This document shows positions 9,943 through 17,437 of a stretch of 64,000 nt of DNA, one piece after another (position 1 is the stretch's first letter; every line of letters begins with the position of its first letter). The stretch lies in the NCBI GenBank assembly GCA_029262115.1, contig JAJCZZ010000027.1, forward strand, positions 1 through 64,000, written 5' to 3'. Both the position numbers and the translations under genes were made by a program. This DNA is from Gemmatimonadota bacterium (GTDB taxonomy: Bacteria; Gemmatimonadota; Gemmatimonadetes; Longimicrobiales; Gaopeijiaceae). Under the pieces are notes generated by a model, which was not told where the DNA came from, did no database searches, and saw only the letters and a list, made by a program, of their open reading frames with translations.

Positions 9943-10032
9943 CCCGGGTCGCTCCTTCTTCGTCAAGCAGCGAACGGACGGCCTCTACCTTCTTGTCCAA
10001 ACGACGACGGGTGAGTGGGGTTCCACCTGGCC

Positions 10033-11367
10033 ATGAGTCTACCCCGTCTCCTCTGGGTCAACGCGTTCATCCGCGTCGCCGCTGCCGGCTCGGGTCAGCT
10101 CTTCGCGTACCTCCTCGCAGAACGGGTAGGTGCGCGCATAGGTAGCGGAGCGATGTGGGTCGGGGTGATCGGCGGGGCCTTCTTCTTTACCGAGATCGTG
10201 GGCGCGCCCCTGGCCGGTCGGGTCGCGGACAAGGTGGGACAGCGGTCCGTCATGCGCTGGGGTCCCCTGTTCGGCGTCGCGTCGGCGCTGGTCGCCGTCT
10301 TCGCGGCCCTCGGCCCGATCGGCGGTGCGGCTCTGGAGGCGACGGGACGAGCGTTACCGGGAATGGGGATTACGGCGGTGGGGCTGCCGGAGTTGTGGCT
10401 TCTGGGGTCGGTCCTTTTCCTCGCTCGACTTGCTGAAGGCGCCAGCGCCGCGGCGACCGTTCCCACCACGCTGGTCTTGCTGGCGCGGGGCACGGAAGGC
10501 GACGTCGAACGACGCGCTCGGATGATGGGTGCCTTCGAGGCGACGTCACTCGTAGGAATGATCGCAGGATACGTGCTTGTCGGAGTGGGGTGGGCGGCCC
10601 TCGGTGCGTGGGCGTTCCTCGCGCTCCCTCCGCTGTACGCCGCCGCCTGGCTACTCATCCCGGGCGGGAGCGAGCCCGGCGTGTACGACGCCGCCGCGCC
10701 GTACGAGGAGCCGGCCCGCCCTCGCCCGTCCGGCGTCCGGGAGACGCTGGGCAAGCTTGCGGCGCGGCCGGGAGCCGTAGGATTCGGCGTGGCGTGGCTG
10801 GCCGTGAACGCCGTGGCGGGACTCTGGATCCAGCAGGCTCCCTTCCTGTTGAGCTTGCCGGAAAGAAGCGCCGATCAAGCACTCGTGGGGGGCTTCTCCG
10901 GCACCGAGGTCGCGGCCGTCTTCGCGGTGTGGGGCGCCGCCCTGCTCGTTGGCATCGGCGTGTGGAGCACGCTGGCTGCCGCATGGCCGAGGCGCCGTCT
11001 GATGACGTGGGCGCTCGCCGGTATGATGGGCGTCACGCTGTGCCTCACCCTCGTCAACCACGGTGCATCACCCCTCTTCCTCTTCCTCGCCGTGGCGCTC
11101 GTGGCCGTCGAGGCGGCCTTCGCGCCGGCGGCCTTCGCCCACCTGGCCGACCTGAGTGAACCGCTGGACGAGAGTCGCGGCCTGGTGCTGGGGCTGTACG
11201 CGCTCGCGCTCGCGGGAGGCCAACTTCTCGGCAACGTACTGGGCGCCCCGTTCGCCGCGTGGTGGCGCATGGACGGGGTCCTCGCACTCACCGCGATCCT
11301 GGCGGTGGTGGCCTGGGTCGGTGTGAGGGGCGTGGTCGACGGCTCGCACGACGTGGACCGAAGCTGA
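10033..11367 (+). CDS. MFS permease
   Basis: The 444-residue product consists of about twelve hydrophobic helices with a central polar loop near residues 200-220, the normal size and layout of a major facilitator superfamily transporter in the inner membrane. Between helices 2 and 3 the segment GAPLAGRVADKVGQRSVMRWG matches the G-x3-D/(R/K)-x-G-(R/K)-R loop signature. I place the start at ATG 10033 rather than the in-frame GTG at 10015, because MSLPRLLWVNAFIR leads directly into helix 1; neither has a strong ribosome site. The substrate cannot be read from sequence. It runs convergently with the flavin reductase gene, 93 bases apart. Confidence 0.85.
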   Translation: MSLPRLLWVNAFIRVAAAGSGQLFAYLLAERVGARIGSGAMWVGVIGGAFFFTEIVGAPLAGRVADKVGQRSVMRWGPLFGVASALVAVFAALGPIGGAALEATGRALPGMGITAVGLPELWLLGSVLFLARLAEGASAAATVPTTLVLLARGTEGDVERRARMMGAFEATSLVGMIAGYVLVGVGWAALGAWAFLALPPLYAAAWLLIPGGSEPGVYDAAAPYEEPARPRPSGVRETLGKLAARPGAVGFGVAWLAVNAVAGLWIQQAPFLLSLPERSADQALVGGFSGTEVAAVFAVWGAALLVGIGVWSTLAAAWPRRRLMTWALAGMMGVTLCLTLVNHGASPLFLFLAVALVAVEAAFAPAAFAHLADLSEPLDESRGLVLGLYALALAGGQLLGNVLGAPFAAWWRMDGVLALTAILAVVAWVGVRGVVDGSHDVDRS

Positions 11368-11460: not shown

Positions 11461-12870
11461 TCAGCGATCCTTCAGCCCCGAGAGCTTCCGCACGACGCGG
11501 CCGAGCAGGCTCGAAGCGAAGTGCTTGACGGCATGGTCGGCAGCCATCCGCTGCAGACCCGTGGACCAGGTCGGATACGCGTGGAGCGCTCCCGCGAGAT
11601 CCCCGACCCCGAGGTCGTGATGCATTGCCAGGGCCACCTCGTTGATCATTTCGCCCGCGCGTTCGGCAACGATCGTCGCACCGACGATCTTCCCCTTTGG
11701 GCCCAGGAGAAGCTTGATGAAGCCGTCCGTCGCGCCGTCGGTAACGGCCCGGTCCTGTCGATCGAGCATTCGCTTCAGCACCGTGAGATCGTTCCCGAGT
11801 CGCGCGCGCGCTTCGTCTTCCGGCCGCCCGATAGAAGCGATCTCCGGATCGAGGAAGGTGACGCGCGGAACGGCGATCGAACGGCCATCATCGCTCCCGG
11901 GAAGGAGCGCGTTCCGCGCGGCCGTGTGGCCCTGCCAGCCGGCGTAGTGCGTGAACTGGGGTCCTCCGGTCACGTCACCCGCGGCGTAGACGTGACGGAC
12001 GTTGGTGCGGAGCTTGTCGTCCACCGTGACGCCGGACGCGTCGAAGCGGACGCCCGCGTCTTCGAGACCCAGGTCGTGAACCCTCGGCGCACGCCCTGTG
12101 GCGACGAGCAGCGCATCGCCACACACCTCGCCGCCCTTCCACCGTACCACCGTGCGCCCTGCCTCGCGCCCCACCCCCTCGACCGAAGCTTCTACGATGT
12201 CGACACCCTTTGATTCGAGCGCGCGGTCGGTGATCTCACGCGCGTCGGCGTCCTCGCCCGGAAGGATCTCGGCGCCGACGACCGTGACGCGCGCTCCGAG
12301 CGCGGAGTAGGCCGTCGCGATCTCGAGCCCGACCGGCCCACCACCCACGATCACGAGACGGTCGGGGAGGACGTCGTTCTCGAAGATGGTCTCGTAGGTG
12401 GTGTAGTCGACGTCGTCGAGCCCGTCGATCGCCGGTACGCTCGGGCCCGCTCCGGTGCAGATGACGATGCGGCGCGGTAGAAGCCGTCGCCCCGCGACGT
12501 CCACCTGTCCGTCGCCTCTCAGCCGCGCGCGCCCTTCGATGACCTCGATCCCTTCTTCGCGAAGTGCTTGAGGATCTTCGTACCGATAGACGTGGGCGAT
12601 CGCGGACCTCACGTGCCGGCGGACGGACGCCATGTCGATCCGCGGCGCGGCGGCTTCGACCCCGAAGCGCCTCGCATTCCGAACCTCCGCGGCGGCCCGT
12701 GCGGCTCGCAGGAGCGCCTTGCTGGGGACGCATCCGGTCCACGTGCAGTCGCCGCCGAGTCTGCCCGACTCGGCCAGCGCCACGCGCGCGCCTACGCTCC
12801 GGGCGAAGCGAGCCGCCACCAGTCCAGCCGAGCCCCCTCCGACGACGAGCAGGTCGTGGGAGGACTTCAC
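11461..12870 (-). CDS. FAD-dependent pyridine nucleotide-disulfide oxidoreductase, MerA/Lpd-like
   Basis: The product (469 aa) has the FAD-binding VVGGGSAGLVAA motif (9-20), a redox-active GGDCTWTGCVPSK site (Cys42/Cys47), the NAD(P) Rossmann IVGGGPVGLEIA (about 170-185), the second FAD motif VYAAGDV, and a dimerisation domain. In lipoamide dehydrogenase and glutathione reductase the dimer domain supplies a catalytic His-Glu pair (HPT-x2-E). Here the aligned stretch reads HAYPTWST, with Tyr and Thr instead, closer to mercuric reductase, although the MerA N-terminal domain and C-terminal cysteine pair are absent. The GTG start at 12870 overlaps the TGA of the GTPase-methyltransferase gene (GTGA), so the two are translationally coupled. 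The substrate is probably a disulfide, metal or metalloid linked to that pathway. Confidence 0.88.
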   Translation of the reverse strand: MKSSHDLLVVGGGSAGLVAARFARSVGARVALAESGRLGGDCTWTGCVPSKALLRAARAAAEVRNARRFGVEAAAPRIDMASVRRHVRSAIAHVYRYEDPQALREEGIEVIEGRARLRGDGQVDVAGRRLLPRRIVICTGAGPSVPAIDGLDDVDYTTYETIFENDVLPDRLVIVGGGPVGLEIATAYSALGARVTVVGAEILPGEDADAREITDRALESKGVDIVEASVEGVGREAGRTVVRWKGGEVCGDALLVATGRAPRVHDLGLEDAGVRFDASGVTVDDKLRTNVRHVYAAGDVTGGPQFTHYAGWQGHTAARNALLPGSDDGRSIAVPRVTFLDPEIASIGRPEDEARARLGNDLTVLKRMLDRQDRAVTDGATDGFIKLLLGPKGKIVGATIVAERAGEMINEVALAMHHDLGVGDLAGALHAYPTWSTGLQRMAADHAVKHFASSLLGRVVRKLSGLKDR

Positions 12871-14891
12871 GCCGACTTCTCGGGGGGCGTCGTGCACGGG
12901 TCTACGGGGTCACCCGCATGTGCGCTCGCCACCTTCTTCGCGAGAAAAACCCCGTAGCTGAGCACCCCTTCCTCGACGGCCTCCCCGGCCTCGCGTAGTG
13001 CGGAACGGGCCGCGCGCACATCGACTCGCATGTCGCCGGGTCCGAACGCGCTACCCTGACCACCGCCCTCGACACCGAGTCCCCCCCTACCGGCCGTACC
13101 ACCCGCACCGAGGCCGCCCGCCGAGGCGGCCAGCGCCAGCCCGACGAGGTTGCGTTTGATCCGACCGAGGATCTCGGTGATCGCCGCCGGCTCCTCCCAC
13201 GAAGCCGTGATCTCGAAGCCAGCCGCCTCGATCAGCCCACGGTACGAGGCCAGGGTCCGCGCCCCCGGCAGACACGTGCCCAACTCGTCCCACGCCGCCA
13301 GCGATGCAGGGAGCGAACCGTTTACCACCACGTCCGTGACCGCCAAACGTCCTCCGCCCCTCAGAACACGCGCCATCTCCGACAGCGCCAAGGCCGGTGC
13401 GCCGAAGGTGCTCAGTGCGCATTCGCACAGGACGGCGTCGAAACCGTCGTCCGGGAAGGGCAGCGCGTGCGCGTCGCCGTGGTGGAGACTCGTGTCGTCT
13501 ACGGGTCCCGGCTGCGCCTCGTGGACGAGGCCATGCACGGCGCCGTCTGCCGCCCCGTCATCGAGGGCGGCCGCGGCCACGACGCTTTCGTCCAGCCCCA
13601 CGCCCACGATTCCGTGACTGTTACGAAGCGCGACGAGACTCTCGCCCGTACCGCAGGCCACGTCGAGGAGGCGTGCTCCGGTCTCGAGTCCCATTTCGTC
13701 CGCGACGCGTCGGGTGAGGGCGGTACCTCCGGGATGGAACGACTCGCCGAGAAGGAGCCTCACGTCGGGTCGATCGTAGAACGCGGCGCAACACGCGCCG
13801 ACTTCGGGTGCACAGCAGCGAATCCGGTGGCGATACGTCGGCACGGGAGCCGCCGGACTGAAGCACTGCAGTCGATCCCACACCACGTGGATCGGCGCGG
13901 CGCCCGAAGGCGTGGGGCCCGCGCCTGCCCGCGCCACACCGGCCGCGCGTGCCGCCGCCTCGACCGCGCGCACGACGCTGTCCTCGACGTCCTCCGGCTT
14001 GCGGGCGATGCGGGCGTTGATGCGCGCGCATAGCCGCGCGACGCTCTGTGGCAGCTTCGTAGTGTGCGTGCGTGGTTCCCCTCGCCCTCCGACGAGCGCA
14101 CCGTACCCGCCCTCCGGGCTCGTCGACACGAGCTTCACGTGCGCGACCGGCTCACCCGCGAACGCGTTCAGGAAGGCTTCGAGAATCACCTTCGGAGCGA
14201 ACGCGTCTTCGGACGAAAACGTTACCTCCGCGTTGGCCCAACCCAGCTCCGCCTCCGCTCGCGCATACCGCTCGTAGTCGATGTCCAGGGTCCGTGAGGG
14301 CGACGACGGCTCCGCCCCGTACCAGGCCTCGATACCGGATCCGTCCTCTCCCGACACCGGCACCACCACGGCGTCGGGGCTGAGCTCGGCGACTTTGGCG
14401 CGTACGTCCGGTGGATCCAGGTCGGCCCGCGACAGGAGCACGATGTCCGCCTCCTCGATCTGCTTGCGGAAGAGATAGGCCAGATCGCTCGAGCCGCCGC
14501 CCTCCAGCGCGTCGCTCAACCGCAGCGGGTCGACGACCACGCTCAGTGGGGCGACTTGAACGTCGGCGGAGCGGGCGCACAGAGGAGAGAGCACCGTCGC
14601 CACGAGGTCCGTGCAGCTCCCCACGGCCTCGGCGAACACGACCGTCGCGCCGCCCGCCTTTGCCGACTCGAGGGCCCGTTCGAGTTCACCGTACCGGCAG
14701 CAGAAGCAACCCCCCGCCACCTCGAACACGGGCGCGCGGTCGGCGCACAGGGTCGTGTCGACGAGCCCCTCGGCCTGGTCGTTCGTGATGATCGCGACCC
14801 GCTCACCCCGCTCCGTCAGGTAGTCGGCTGCCGCCCGGATGAACGTCGTCTTTCCCGCCCCGAGGAAACCGCCGAAGACGTGCACCCTCAC
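12867..14891 (-). CDS. Fusion of CobW/G3E GTPase domain and ArsM-like SAM methyltransferase
   Basis: Residues 1-320 are a G3E-family metallochaperone GTPase: Walker A GGFLGAGKT (7-15) and metal-binding GGCFCC (60-65), but the NKxD base-recognition motif is SRAD (154-157). Residues from about 355 form a class I methyltransferase with LLDVACGTGES (408-418) and MARVLRGGGRLAVTDVV (506-522). A CC-x6-CC cluster (359/360, 367/368) precedes it; Cys489/491 (CECALSTF) and Cys540 (CLPGA) fall where arsenite methyltransferases have conserved cysteines (SNCV and C-x-GA motifs). This suggests methylation of arsenic or another soft metalloid, with the GTPase domain handling metal delivery. The start is GTG 14891, 63 bases after the radical SAM gene. 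A Gly-rich stretch (590-620) precedes the tail. Confidence 0.85.
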   Translation of the reverse strand: MRVHVFGGFLGAGKTTFIRAAADYLTERGERVAIITNDQAEGLVDTTLCADRAPVFEVAGGCFCCRYGELERALESAKAGGATVVFAEAVGSCTDLVATVLSPLCARSADVQVAPLSVVVDPLRLSDALEGGGSSDLAYLFRKQIEEADIVLLSRADLDPPDVRAKVAELSPDAVVVPVSGEDGSGIEAWYGAEPSSPSRTLDIDYERYARAEAELGWANAEVTFSSEDAFAPKVILEAFLNAFAGEPVAHVKLVSTSPEGGYGALVGGRGEPRTHTTKLPQSVARLCARINARIARKPEDVEDSVVRAVEAAARAAGVARAGAGPTPSGAAPIHVVWDRLQCFSPAAPVPTYRHRIRCCAPEVGACCAAFYDRPDVRLLLGESFHPGGTALTRRVADEMGLETGARLLDVACGTGESLVALRNSHGIVGVGLDESVVAAAALDDGAADGAVHGLVHEAQPGPVDDTSLHHGDAHALPFPDDGFDAVLCECALSTFGAPALALSEMARVLRGGGRLAVTDVVVNGSLPASLAAWDELGTCLPGARTLASYRGLIEAAGFEITASWEEPAAITEILGRIKRNLVGLALAASAGGLGAGGTAGRGGLGVEGGGQGSAFGPGDMRVDVRAARSALREAGEAVEEGVLSYGVFLAKKVASAHAGDPVDPCTTPPEKSA

Positions 14892-14954
14892 CGGCGACCC
14901 CGTGCGTCTCCGGCACTCACCGCACGCCGTCCCGCGTGTCGCCGCGCCTGACGT

Positions 14955-16259
14955 TCACAGCATCCCTTTCGGCCGCCGGACCGCGTTGTATTCGCAGAAC
15001 GAGACCGGCGTGCCCGAGCGATCGACGATATGAACGCAGCAGCGGTCGATGCGGTCTTGATCGTAGCTGTGGGCGTCCATGAACGGCTTGATCGCGACAA
15101 CGAGAAAGTTGTGGTAGTCGGACCAATCGACCGAGTCGTCGTCCTCGGCCAGGAGATCGAGTAGCGAATCGACGACCGCGTGGTCCCCGATGTCGTCGAA
15201 CATGTGCTGGGGAAGGCGGTCCGCGAAACGCTCCACCAGTTGCTCCACGCCCGGCTGCTCCCACGATTCGAACTTCGGAAAGTAGCGCGACACCGGGATC
15301 GCTTCGCCGTCCCTCATGAGCGCCACCGCCATCGCGAAGCAGTTCGGGTGGGAGCAGGGGATGGGGGTGAAGTCCTCGAGGGTGAAGAGTCCGCCGCTCT
15401 GCCGGACGACCTCGCCCGCGACTTCGGACATCGTCAGGTGCACCGACTTCTCGTTGTCGTATCTGCCGGAGTAGAACGCGGGCTGGAGCATCAGCGTCGT
15501 CATGCGTGGGTGGTTGCCCCGGACGAGGTCCAAGACCGAACCCACTTCGTGCAGGTTGATCTCTCGGGCCACGGTCATGACGGGCATGACGAAGAGCCCG
15601 GCCTCGAGCGCATTCTCGATCGCCCGTCGCTTCATCGGCAGGAGTCCCTTCGCACCGCGGATCTCGGCGTACGTGGCGTCTGCGAAGCCGTCGAACTGGA
15701 GATAGACCTGGATCCGGTCGCGCCCGCCGTCGATCTCCGCCCACCTCCGTGCGCGCCCCGGTTCGGTCGCCAGCCGAATGCCGTTCGTATTGACGTACAC
15801 CTTCTTCACATCGCGTTCCAAGCAAATCTCGATCATCCGCTCGAGGTCGGGGTGGACCGTCGGCTCACCGCCGGAGAATTGTACGATATCGGCGTCACCC
15901 TTTCCCTGAGCCCTGAGCCGGTCGAGGCGTTCGGTGAAGTCGTCCACCGACAGCATCCACGTGTGGTGGGTTGAGGAGCCCGCGAAGCAGGTCGGGCACG
16001 TCAGATTGCACCGCTCGGTGATCTCGAAGATCAGAGTGCAACTGTGATTGACGCTGCAGCACCCGCCGGCGCCGCAACCCGGTCCCGCCTCGGCGCCGCT
16101 GTTCCAGTACAAGCCGGCGTCCTTTTCGACGAGCGCCGACTCCGCTCCGTGTGTCGGGCAAATTTTTTCCAACCACACCGCGCCTTCGCGCCGCCGGACC
16201 TCGGCGGGTACCGGGTCGAGGCAGGTGGAGCACAGACTCGTGGTGGACTTCAGTAGCAT
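14955..16259 (-). CDS. Radical SAM enzyme of the MJ0619/Tes-like type
   Basis: The 434-residue protein has the 4Fe-4S radical SAM triad Cys84-x3-Cys88-x2-Cys91 in ERCNLTCPTC, the GGEP motif at 130-133, and extra cysteines N-terminal to it: Cys10/Cys13, Cys34 in CPTHG, and a GCGAGGCC cluster (61-68) with Cys74. An N-terminal cysteine domain with 'LC..C' and 'CP.HG' preceding the radical SAM core is typical of the family that includes archaeal MJ0619 and the tetraether lipid synthase Tes, which join unactivated carbons. Bacterial members are mostly uncharacterised. It is the first gene of a minus-strand operon with the GTPase-methyltransferase fusion and the flavin reductase. The substrate is unknown; lipid or metalloid-bearing compounds are both possible. 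Confidence 0.85.
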   Translation of the reverse strand: MLLKSTTSLCSTCLDPVPAEVRRREGAVWLEKICPTHGAESALVEKDAGLYWNSGAEAGPGCGAGGCCSVNHSCTLIFEITERCNLTCPTCFAGSSTHHTWMLSVDDFTERLDRLRAQGKGDADIVQFSGGEPTVHPDLERMIEICLERDVKKVYVNTNGIRLATEPGRARRWAEIDGGRDRIQVYLQFDGFADATYAEIRGAKGLLPMKRRAIENALEAGLFVMPVMTVAREINLHEVGSVLDLVRGNHPRMTTLMLQPAFYSGRYDNEKSVHLTMSEVAGEVVRQSGGLFTLEDFTPIPCSHPNCFAMAVALMRDGEAIPVSRYFPKFESWEQPGVEQLVERFADRLPQHMFDDIGDHAVVDSLLDLLAEDDDSVDWSDYHNFLVVAIKPFMDAHSYDQDRIDRCCVHIVDRSGTPVSFCEYNAVRRPKGML

Positions 16260-16614
16260 GCGCTATCTCGGAGTGCCATGATGAACAAGCCAGCCTAGTG
16301 TGGAGTGAACGATCCAGGAGTGCGAGGGGTGAACGAGCGGGCCTGGCTTGGGGTGAATTCGTGGCGTGTAGCCTCGACGGGTCGGACCCGGCATCACCAA
16401 CGGCCGCGCCCTGCCCTCAGAACCCACGGAAGTGAAAACGGGATCCTCGCCGCTCGCCACTCGAATCCGATGGGAGCGAACATGGAACGCGTCTGGCGCC
16501 GCGGCGCGATCGCCGCGTCGCTGAGGGCTGGCGTCGCCCAATGGTGCAGGCGTGGAGTATCCGACGAAGATCATTGGGGGTCCAAAAGGCTCCCGCGACC
16601 CAGGAGCCAGGACC
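16260..16614. other. Divergent intergenic region
   Basis: This separates the minus-strand radical SAM operon from the plus-strand channel gene, so it should hold both promoters; I cannot pick convincing -35/-10 boxes. Near 16299-16370 there are three degenerate copies of a GGGTGAAC-like unit about 24-30 bases apart. A short stem (CGCGGCG/CGCCGCG) lies near 16499-16516. No coding sequence is supported. Confidence 0.4.
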
Positions 16615-17437
16615 ATGCCAACCGAGCGACCCGAAGCCAGATACATCCGTGCAGAGCACGTCGTCCGCGCGATGGGCGACTTCGGCGCCGAAAGGCTCGA
16701 CCGTCTCGGTCCCGGCAAGGAAATGGCGCTCGCAGTCATGGGGGGCGGCTTCATCACCGTCGGCGCGATCTTTTCAGTGCTCCTCGCTTCGGGAATCGAG
16801 GTCGAAGGGACGAAACGTCTCCTCGAGGGACTCGGCTTCAGCACGGGCTTCTTCTTCGTCGTCCCTCTCCGAGGCCGTGCTCTTCACGGAAGCCAACGCG
16901 GTCTTACCTGCTGTCATGCTGCGTACCCGTGTGATCTGCTTCCGCGTGGTCCGCTTCTGGGCTCTGGCATGGGTCGGGAACTTCGTCGGAGCTCTCCTCG
17001 TGGGCGCGGCGATTACTGGAACGCGGAGTTACGGTGAGGCCGAGCGGGCCCTCCTCGTAGAGCTGACCGACGCAAAGATGCAGTGGATGCATCGGGGTGG
17101 CGCCGGATCGTGGTTCTCGGTGGTGCTGTCCGGCGTGCTCGCCAACTGGCTCGTGGGGATGGCCGCCGTCTTCGCGACAATGGGGCGCACCATCATCGGA
17201 AAGTACATACCGGTCCTGCTCGCGGTGAGCGCCTTCGTCGCGGCGAACTTTCAGCACAGCCCCGCGAACATGGCGTACTTCGCGCTCGCGCGGGGGCTCG
17301 ACATCGGCCCCGGATGGGTCGACGCCCTCCTCTGGAACGTCGTGCCTGCGGGGATCGGCAATCCGGTCGGAGGCGCCGTACCGGTGACGTTGCTGCTCGC
17401 CTACGGCTTTTCCGGGCTCAGCGACGAGAAGCGTTAG
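16615..17437 (+). pseudogene. Formate/nitrite transporter (FNT) family channel, one frameshift
   Basis: From ATG 16615 (AGGAG upstream) the frame encodes RYIRAEHVVRAMGDFGAERL and the first helices, ending LGFSTGFFFVV. A C-run at 16863-16865 then carries one base too many: removing it gives LSEAVLFTEANAVLPAVM and the remaining helices to the stop at 17437, about 273 residues in all. FNT hallmarks are present: the conserved His in FQHSPANMAYF and the second pseudo-repeat GIGNPVGGAV. FNT proteins form pentameric inner-membrane channels for formate, nitrite, hydrosulfide or similar small anions. A homopolymer indel from sequencing is a serious alternative to a real pseudogene. Confidence 0.78.

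Follow-up and report, generated by a model that had tools for sequence, protein, structure and literature searches.

What chemistry is encoded by an operon in which a radical SAM enzyme, a GTPase fused to a methyltransferase and a flavin disulfide reductase follow one another on the minus strand? The operon lies in a 64,000-nucleotide stretch of Gemmatimonadota DNA (contig JAJCZZ010000027.1), referred to here as the window. A reading made from the sequence alone had taken it for an undescribed pathway, either of organometalloid synthesis or of an unusual lipid modification. The answer we favour is that the operon serves to synthesise an organometalloid, perhaps as a means of detoxification: a small molecule in which a soft element, for example arsenic, is bound to carbon. 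We hold this tentatively, as a proposal that falls a little short of being probable. The tight packing of three genes on one strand that the sequence-only reading described is confirmed, all three ORFs being found at the expected minus-strand positions (Table 1). The gap between the radical SAM gene and the fusion is 63 nt. The fusion itself, as had been proposed, is one continuous ORF (12867-14891, 674 aa) in which both a cobW domain (residues 3-162) and a DVU_1556 methyltransferase domain (residues 384-577) are matched; no such fusion was found among the other loci examined. Its stop codon TGA (12869-12867) overlaps the GTG start of the reductase (12870-12868) in a GTGA, and from this start the reductase is 469 aa long, not 478 aa.

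Table 1. The operon and its flanking genes in the window.
Feature	Position	Strand	Basis or remark
Radical SAM protein, Tes/TrsS superfamily, 434 aa	14955..16259	-	PF04055 and PF23545 Zn-ribbon, NCBIfam, structure model
GTPase half of the fused gene, residues 1-345, COG0523/CobW-type	13857..14891	-	GGCFCC motif; subfamily includes arsinothricin-type cluster GTPases
Methyltransferase half of the fused gene, DVU_1556/TrsM-like class I	12867..13856	-	Invariant CC, CEC (ArsM C174) and C203 of the alignment (ArsM C224)
Flavin disulfide reductase, 469 aa from GTG at 12870	11461..12870	-	GGDCTWTGC redox motif; without MerA-type C-terminal Cys pair
MFS transporter, convergent with the operon	10015..11367	+	Possible exporter
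Formate/nitrite transporter homologue, divergent upstream, broken frame	16541-17437 and 16552-17037	+	Profile match

The radical SAM protein is Tes/MJ0619-like, as had been suggested. Its best NCBIfam match is TrsS (NF045646; 252.3 bits, E 6e-75) and the second is Tes (NF045702; 203.6 bits), the scores lying below the curated cut-offs of 490 and 450, respectively. The structure model matches Tes (7tom) with a Z of 43.5 over 388 residues, and the next entry has a Z of 20. The rubredoxin-like motif C10-X2-C13-X20-C34-X2-H37, the radical SAM cluster motif C84-X3-C88-X2-C91 and the C-terminal auxiliary cysteines C302/C307/C407/C408/C422 are all present, and by comparison with the ligands described in the Tes structure paper (PMC9433317) the protein keeps the Tes cofactor ligand set. 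While these motifs and the full-length fold are common to Tes/GDGT-MAS (MJ0619, 7tol/7tom), the window protein differs from it in length (434 aa versus 526 aa, at 30% identity), in an N-terminal auxiliary motif altered throughout the window's clade (GCGAGGCCSVNHSC) and in having an ArsM-like methyltransferase as its partner. Against ArsL it gave no BLAST match at E 1e-3; the ArsL compared scores 705 bits with NF040542.

The methyltransferase half scores 128.7 bits with the DVU_1556 family (NF045667), below the cut-off of 155, and 58.6 bits with ArsM (NF008823), below the cut-off of 263; it also matches ArsM in a profile-profile comparison. Its model (pLDDT 76) has an ordinary class I methyltransferase fold. 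ArsM chains are not among the 50 entries listed in the fold comparison, and the ArsM likeness may lie beyond them. The arsenic site of CmArsM is formed by C72, C174 and C224. An alignment of TrsM-like sequences places a cysteine at the C174 and C224 positions (CmArsM numbering) in 18 of 18, and at the C72 position in 0 of 18, an FHPGG motif standing there instead; all 18 proteins also share a CC pair at the methyltransferase N-terminus. The earlier claim of ArsM-like cysteine positions therefore stands for C174 and C224 and fails for C72, and the same alignment, read as a check for a metalloid site, finds two site positions invariant and the third replaced. Fusion to a GTPase is a further difference from ArsM. 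In most ArsM enzymes, four conserved cysteines are required for catalysis (PMC8552651).

For the GTPase half, which carries a GGCFCC motif, a comparison with 72,556 plasmids gave 17 matching records at E 2e-25 or lower; the general COG0523 proteins that were sampled reach no better than E 2e-8. Seven of these records were opened, and six proved to be arsinothricin-type clusters, while one (Leptolinea) did not. The GTPase subfamily is thus present in 6/6 of the arsinothricin-type plasmid clusters inspected, where it supplies the strongest plasmid matches to the window GTPase and where neighbouring genes are annotated as ArsL, AST-type ArsM or ArsN1. In a tree, the subfamily is separated from CobW/YjiA/ZigA with 100/100 support, but the branching within it gives no firm grouping of the window GTPase with the arsinothricin copies. 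Four other copies of the subfamily in the window's class sit in other contexts, three of them by sugar-metabolism-like genes as judged by eye. Since the tree does not place the window copy with the arsinothricin ones and other copies occur in other contexts, the connection of the GTPase to organoarsenical clusters is suggestive, short of diagnostic. As for the arsinothricin clusters themselves (the arsQML type and the plasmid type with GTPase, ATP-grasp and MFS), they resemble the window in combining a radical SAM enzyme, an ArsM-type methyltransferase and a transporter, and the plasmid type also in having a GTPase of the same COG0523 subfamily. They differ in that the window's radical SAM enzyme is Tes-like rather than ArsL and the window has a flavin reductase, whereas no ArsR, ArsN1 or ATP-grasp homologue was found.

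The idea of a GTPase dedicated to arsenic was rejected, as the same subfamily adjoins sugar-metabolism-like genes in three loci. By eye, the subfamily gene in loci L251, L252 and L253 is divergent from sugar-isomerase-like and ABC-transporter-like genes.

The reductase is MerA/Lpd-like and coupled to the fusion by the GTGA overlap, both as had been proposed, and has a CxxxxC redox motif. It scores 350.5 bits with MerA (TIGR02053), below the cut-off of 454, and lacks the MerA C-terminal Cys pair, its C-terminus ending RVVRKLSGLKDR. Copies from related clusters with the motif in hand likewise read GGDC....C and are without the C-terminal pair. Six cluster-bearing genomes were compared, and in five of them (G403-G406 and G408) no protein in the genome matches the window reductase better than the copy in the cluster. 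G407 is the exception: its cluster copy is a fragment at a contig edge and is outscored by a second such fragment, the two perhaps being parts of one gene. A related reductase is also found near ArsS in 2 of the 15 ArsS loci examined: in an ArsM-ArsS locus (L202), where it is the genome's best match to the window reductase and is accompanied by DUF547 and a TVP38-like gene, and as a fragment in L205. DUF547 lies between the radical SAM and methyltransferase genes in L032 and L035 and beside the radical SAM gene in a third Trs-type locus, so one arsenosugar locus has both the related reductase and the DUF547 of Trs-type loci, although ArsS belongs to a different radical SAM family from the window protein. 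No match to TIGR04167 at E 1e-60 was found in the window's genome. PF07355 gave no match there either, but as the controls also stayed silent this negative carries no weight.

Does this set of genes recur? We scanned one genome per species (84,980 species) with the radical SAM alignment and took the best 80 loci. A TrsM-like methyltransferase follows the radical SAM gene, mostly directly, in 16 of them, and these come from Verrucomicrobiota, Planctomycetota, Pseudomonadota, Chloroflexota, Thermomicrobiota, Acidobacteriota, Myxococcota and Nitrososphaerota. With the additional pairs in L032, L017 and a Mycolicibacterium plasmid, the adjacency is seen in about 20 loci, in at least seven phyla and at three places on the radical SAM tree. 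The reductase is present in the same locus in 7/16 methyltransferase-bearing loci versus 0/64 others (Fisher p = 4e-6), or 6/16 if the distant copy in L097 is left out (p = 3e-5), and in L098 both the gene order and a 4-bp methyltransferase-reductase overlap are as in the window. On a tree of 55 radical SAM proteins the methyltransferase label requires 5 changes, versus 17 in shuffles. In the reductase count and the tree test, L037 and L038 were counted as lacking the methyltransferase, and the conclusions are unchanged by this. Homologues that failed to cluster elsewhere would have told against the sequence-only reading; in fact the radical SAM enzyme, methyltransferase and reductase are grouped in several phyla, and the operon grouping is therefore more than chance. 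Viral contigs scanned with the fusion and with the radical SAM protein gave no relatives.

Among 395 genomes of the window's own phylum there is one close relative (L029). Its radical SAM protein is 68% identical to that of the window, and behind it lies a truncated GTPase piece with 58% identity. The GTPase homology there (L029:713-2946) ends at residue 237, and frames judged by eye to be phage-like follow; the break is either an insertion or a chimeric contig. In two loci of the archaeal Nitrososphaerota (L039:3458-3766 and L045:3471-3770), a small thioredoxin-like gene lies directly after the methyltransferase gene.

The wider family also bears on the proposal that the operon belongs to a lipid-modifying pathway, in which the Tes-like enzyme would join or alter alkyl chains and the methyltransferase and reductase would decorate the product, giving, for example, an arsenolipid or a methylated lipid. 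The fold match to Tes and the conserved Tes cofactor ligands speak for it, as does an lgt homologue near 59 of the 68 radical SAM relatives that lack the methyltransferase; the CDP-alcohol phosphatidyltransferase genes near L056, L068 and L098 are a faint sign in the same direction. However, lgt is near none of the 22 loci of the methyltransferase set (19 with the gene in hand and three, L029, L037 and L038, placed there by clade because contig ends or a cut-off gene leave the methyltransferase out of hand), and the p-value of 4e-14 for this split, like the others given here, overstates the independent evidence, the loci being related and some contigs short, although the split extends across phyla. 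The lipid-type partner is therefore a feature of the branch without the methyltransferase. The NCBIfam Tes score, 204 against a cut-off of 450, is a further point against a lipid pathway, and the lipid half of the sequence-only reading, weakened in this way, is now quite improbable. In the other branch, Tes-like radical SAM genes that have lgt nearby and no methyltransferase (L041-L113 and the window-order relatives L002 and L003) were seen in Bacteroidota, Pseudomonadota, Bacillota and others, and are apparently one half of a widespread lipid- or lipoprotein-linked pair.

Two further readings keep the methyltransferase at the centre. If the substrate were a thiol or selenol (a small molecule, a cofactor or a protein cysteine), S- or Se-methylation would be followed by radical SAM formation of a C-S, C-Se or C-C bond, and the ligand of the CEC and C203 cysteines would be zinc or the thiol instead of arsenic. 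This is consistent with the selenoproteins among the nearest named families, TrsS and the CobW-related protein (NF041053, with which the window GTPase scores 41.7 bits, below the cut-off of 180), with an apparent GrdB-like selenoprotein gene in the L094 cluster, with DsbA- or thioredoxin-like neighbours in L029, L039, L045 and L055, and with a search for ars genes nearby that, with the queries used, found none. We nevertheless judge it unlikely, if a serious contender, as the two invariant cysteines sit at ArsM arsenic-site positions and both the GTPase and the reductase have relatives in organoarsenical clusters. The L094 frame in question (12286-13020), just downstream of the radical SAM-methyltransferase pair, has an in-frame TGA in the context VPV-TGA-PFC. 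Some 5-9 kb from the pair, the same locus also encodes an HMA-domain MerA and a protein with a MerT domain. Together with the MerA-like profile of the window reductase, this could indicate that the genes respond to stress from mercury or another heavy metal, or detoxify it, and do not form a biosynthetic pathway. Such a role seems very unlikely: mer genes were recognised in that one locus only, and the window reductase has neither the MerA C-terminal Cys pair nor a score (350) that reaches the MerA cut-off.

We favour an organometalloid product because of the cysteines at C174 and C224 in all 18 sequences, the GTPase in all six arsinothricin-type clusters and the reductase match in an ArsM-ArsS locus, and also because of the radical SAM-methyltransferase adjacency, the reductase co-occurrence, the shared DUF547 and the content of L094. 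There is published precedent for a radical SAM enzyme and ArsM producing an arsenical (PMC8552651). The expected ars neighbours, however, did not appear: with one or two queries per family, the window and 22 related loci yielded none. The organometalloid proposal is thus supported in part, by the clustering and by two ArsM-type cysteines. Also against it are the FHPGG replacement of the C72 equivalent, the sugar-isomerase-type and other contexts of the GTPase subfamily, the lack of BLAST similarity to ArsL, the scarcity of the related reductase at ArsS loci, the phosphatidyltransferase genes near three Trs-type loci, and a canonical ArsM encoded elsewhere in the host genome.

Were the product an organometalloid, the flavin reductase would keep the element or its thiol carrier reduced, and the GTPase half, which carries the GGCFCC motif, would deliver the element to its fusion partner, the methyltransferase. 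The latter would put one or more SAM methyl groups on the element by means of its two ArsM-type cysteines, and radical chemistry by the Tes-like enzyme would then attach the methylated element to a carbon skeleton. A more specific claim, and one that we consider somewhat unlikely, is that the operon represents a new class of organometalloid biosynthesis: a fused GTPase carrier would supply an ArsM-like methyltransferase, and a Tes-fold radical SAM enzyme, and not ArsS or ArsL, would form a C-As (or C-Sb, C-Se) bond on what the methyltransferase makes. If the metalloid proposal is true, this would be a third radical SAM route to carbon-arsenic compounds, beside ArsS and ArsL, with representatives in many bacterial phyla and in some archaea. 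In either case the split in neighbourhoods, lgt on one side and an ArsM-like methyltransferase with a flavin reductase on the other, offers two testable chemistries for Tes-fold enzymes.

How new is the pathway? The sources consulted gave no function for the TrsS and DVU_1556 families, in keeping with the view that it is undescribed, but the families themselves are already named in NCBIfam, and a review lists TrsS, placing it among selenoproteins (PMC13188914). They are the best-scoring curated families for their respective domains, and radical SAM-methyltransferase adjacency is a feature of the related loci. As the scores fall below every curated cut-off tested (252 versus 490 for TrsS and 129 versus 155 for DVU_1556), the window proteins are best classed as relatives, and not as members, of the TrsS, DVU_1556, Tes and ArsM families; the GTPase fusion and the altered N-terminal cluster motif also set them apart from TrsS and DVU_1556.

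Two transporter genes flank the operon. The divergent one, previously called an anion channel, is indeed a divergent formate/nitrite transporter homologue, but its frame is broken: it is split in two near 16865 (FFFVV versus LSEAVLFTEAN), through either a sequencing error or a pseudogene, and nothing ties this transporter to the operon. The neighbouring MFS protein may export the product; it is 31% identical to an MFS protein that adjoins the related reductase in L094, a weak link.
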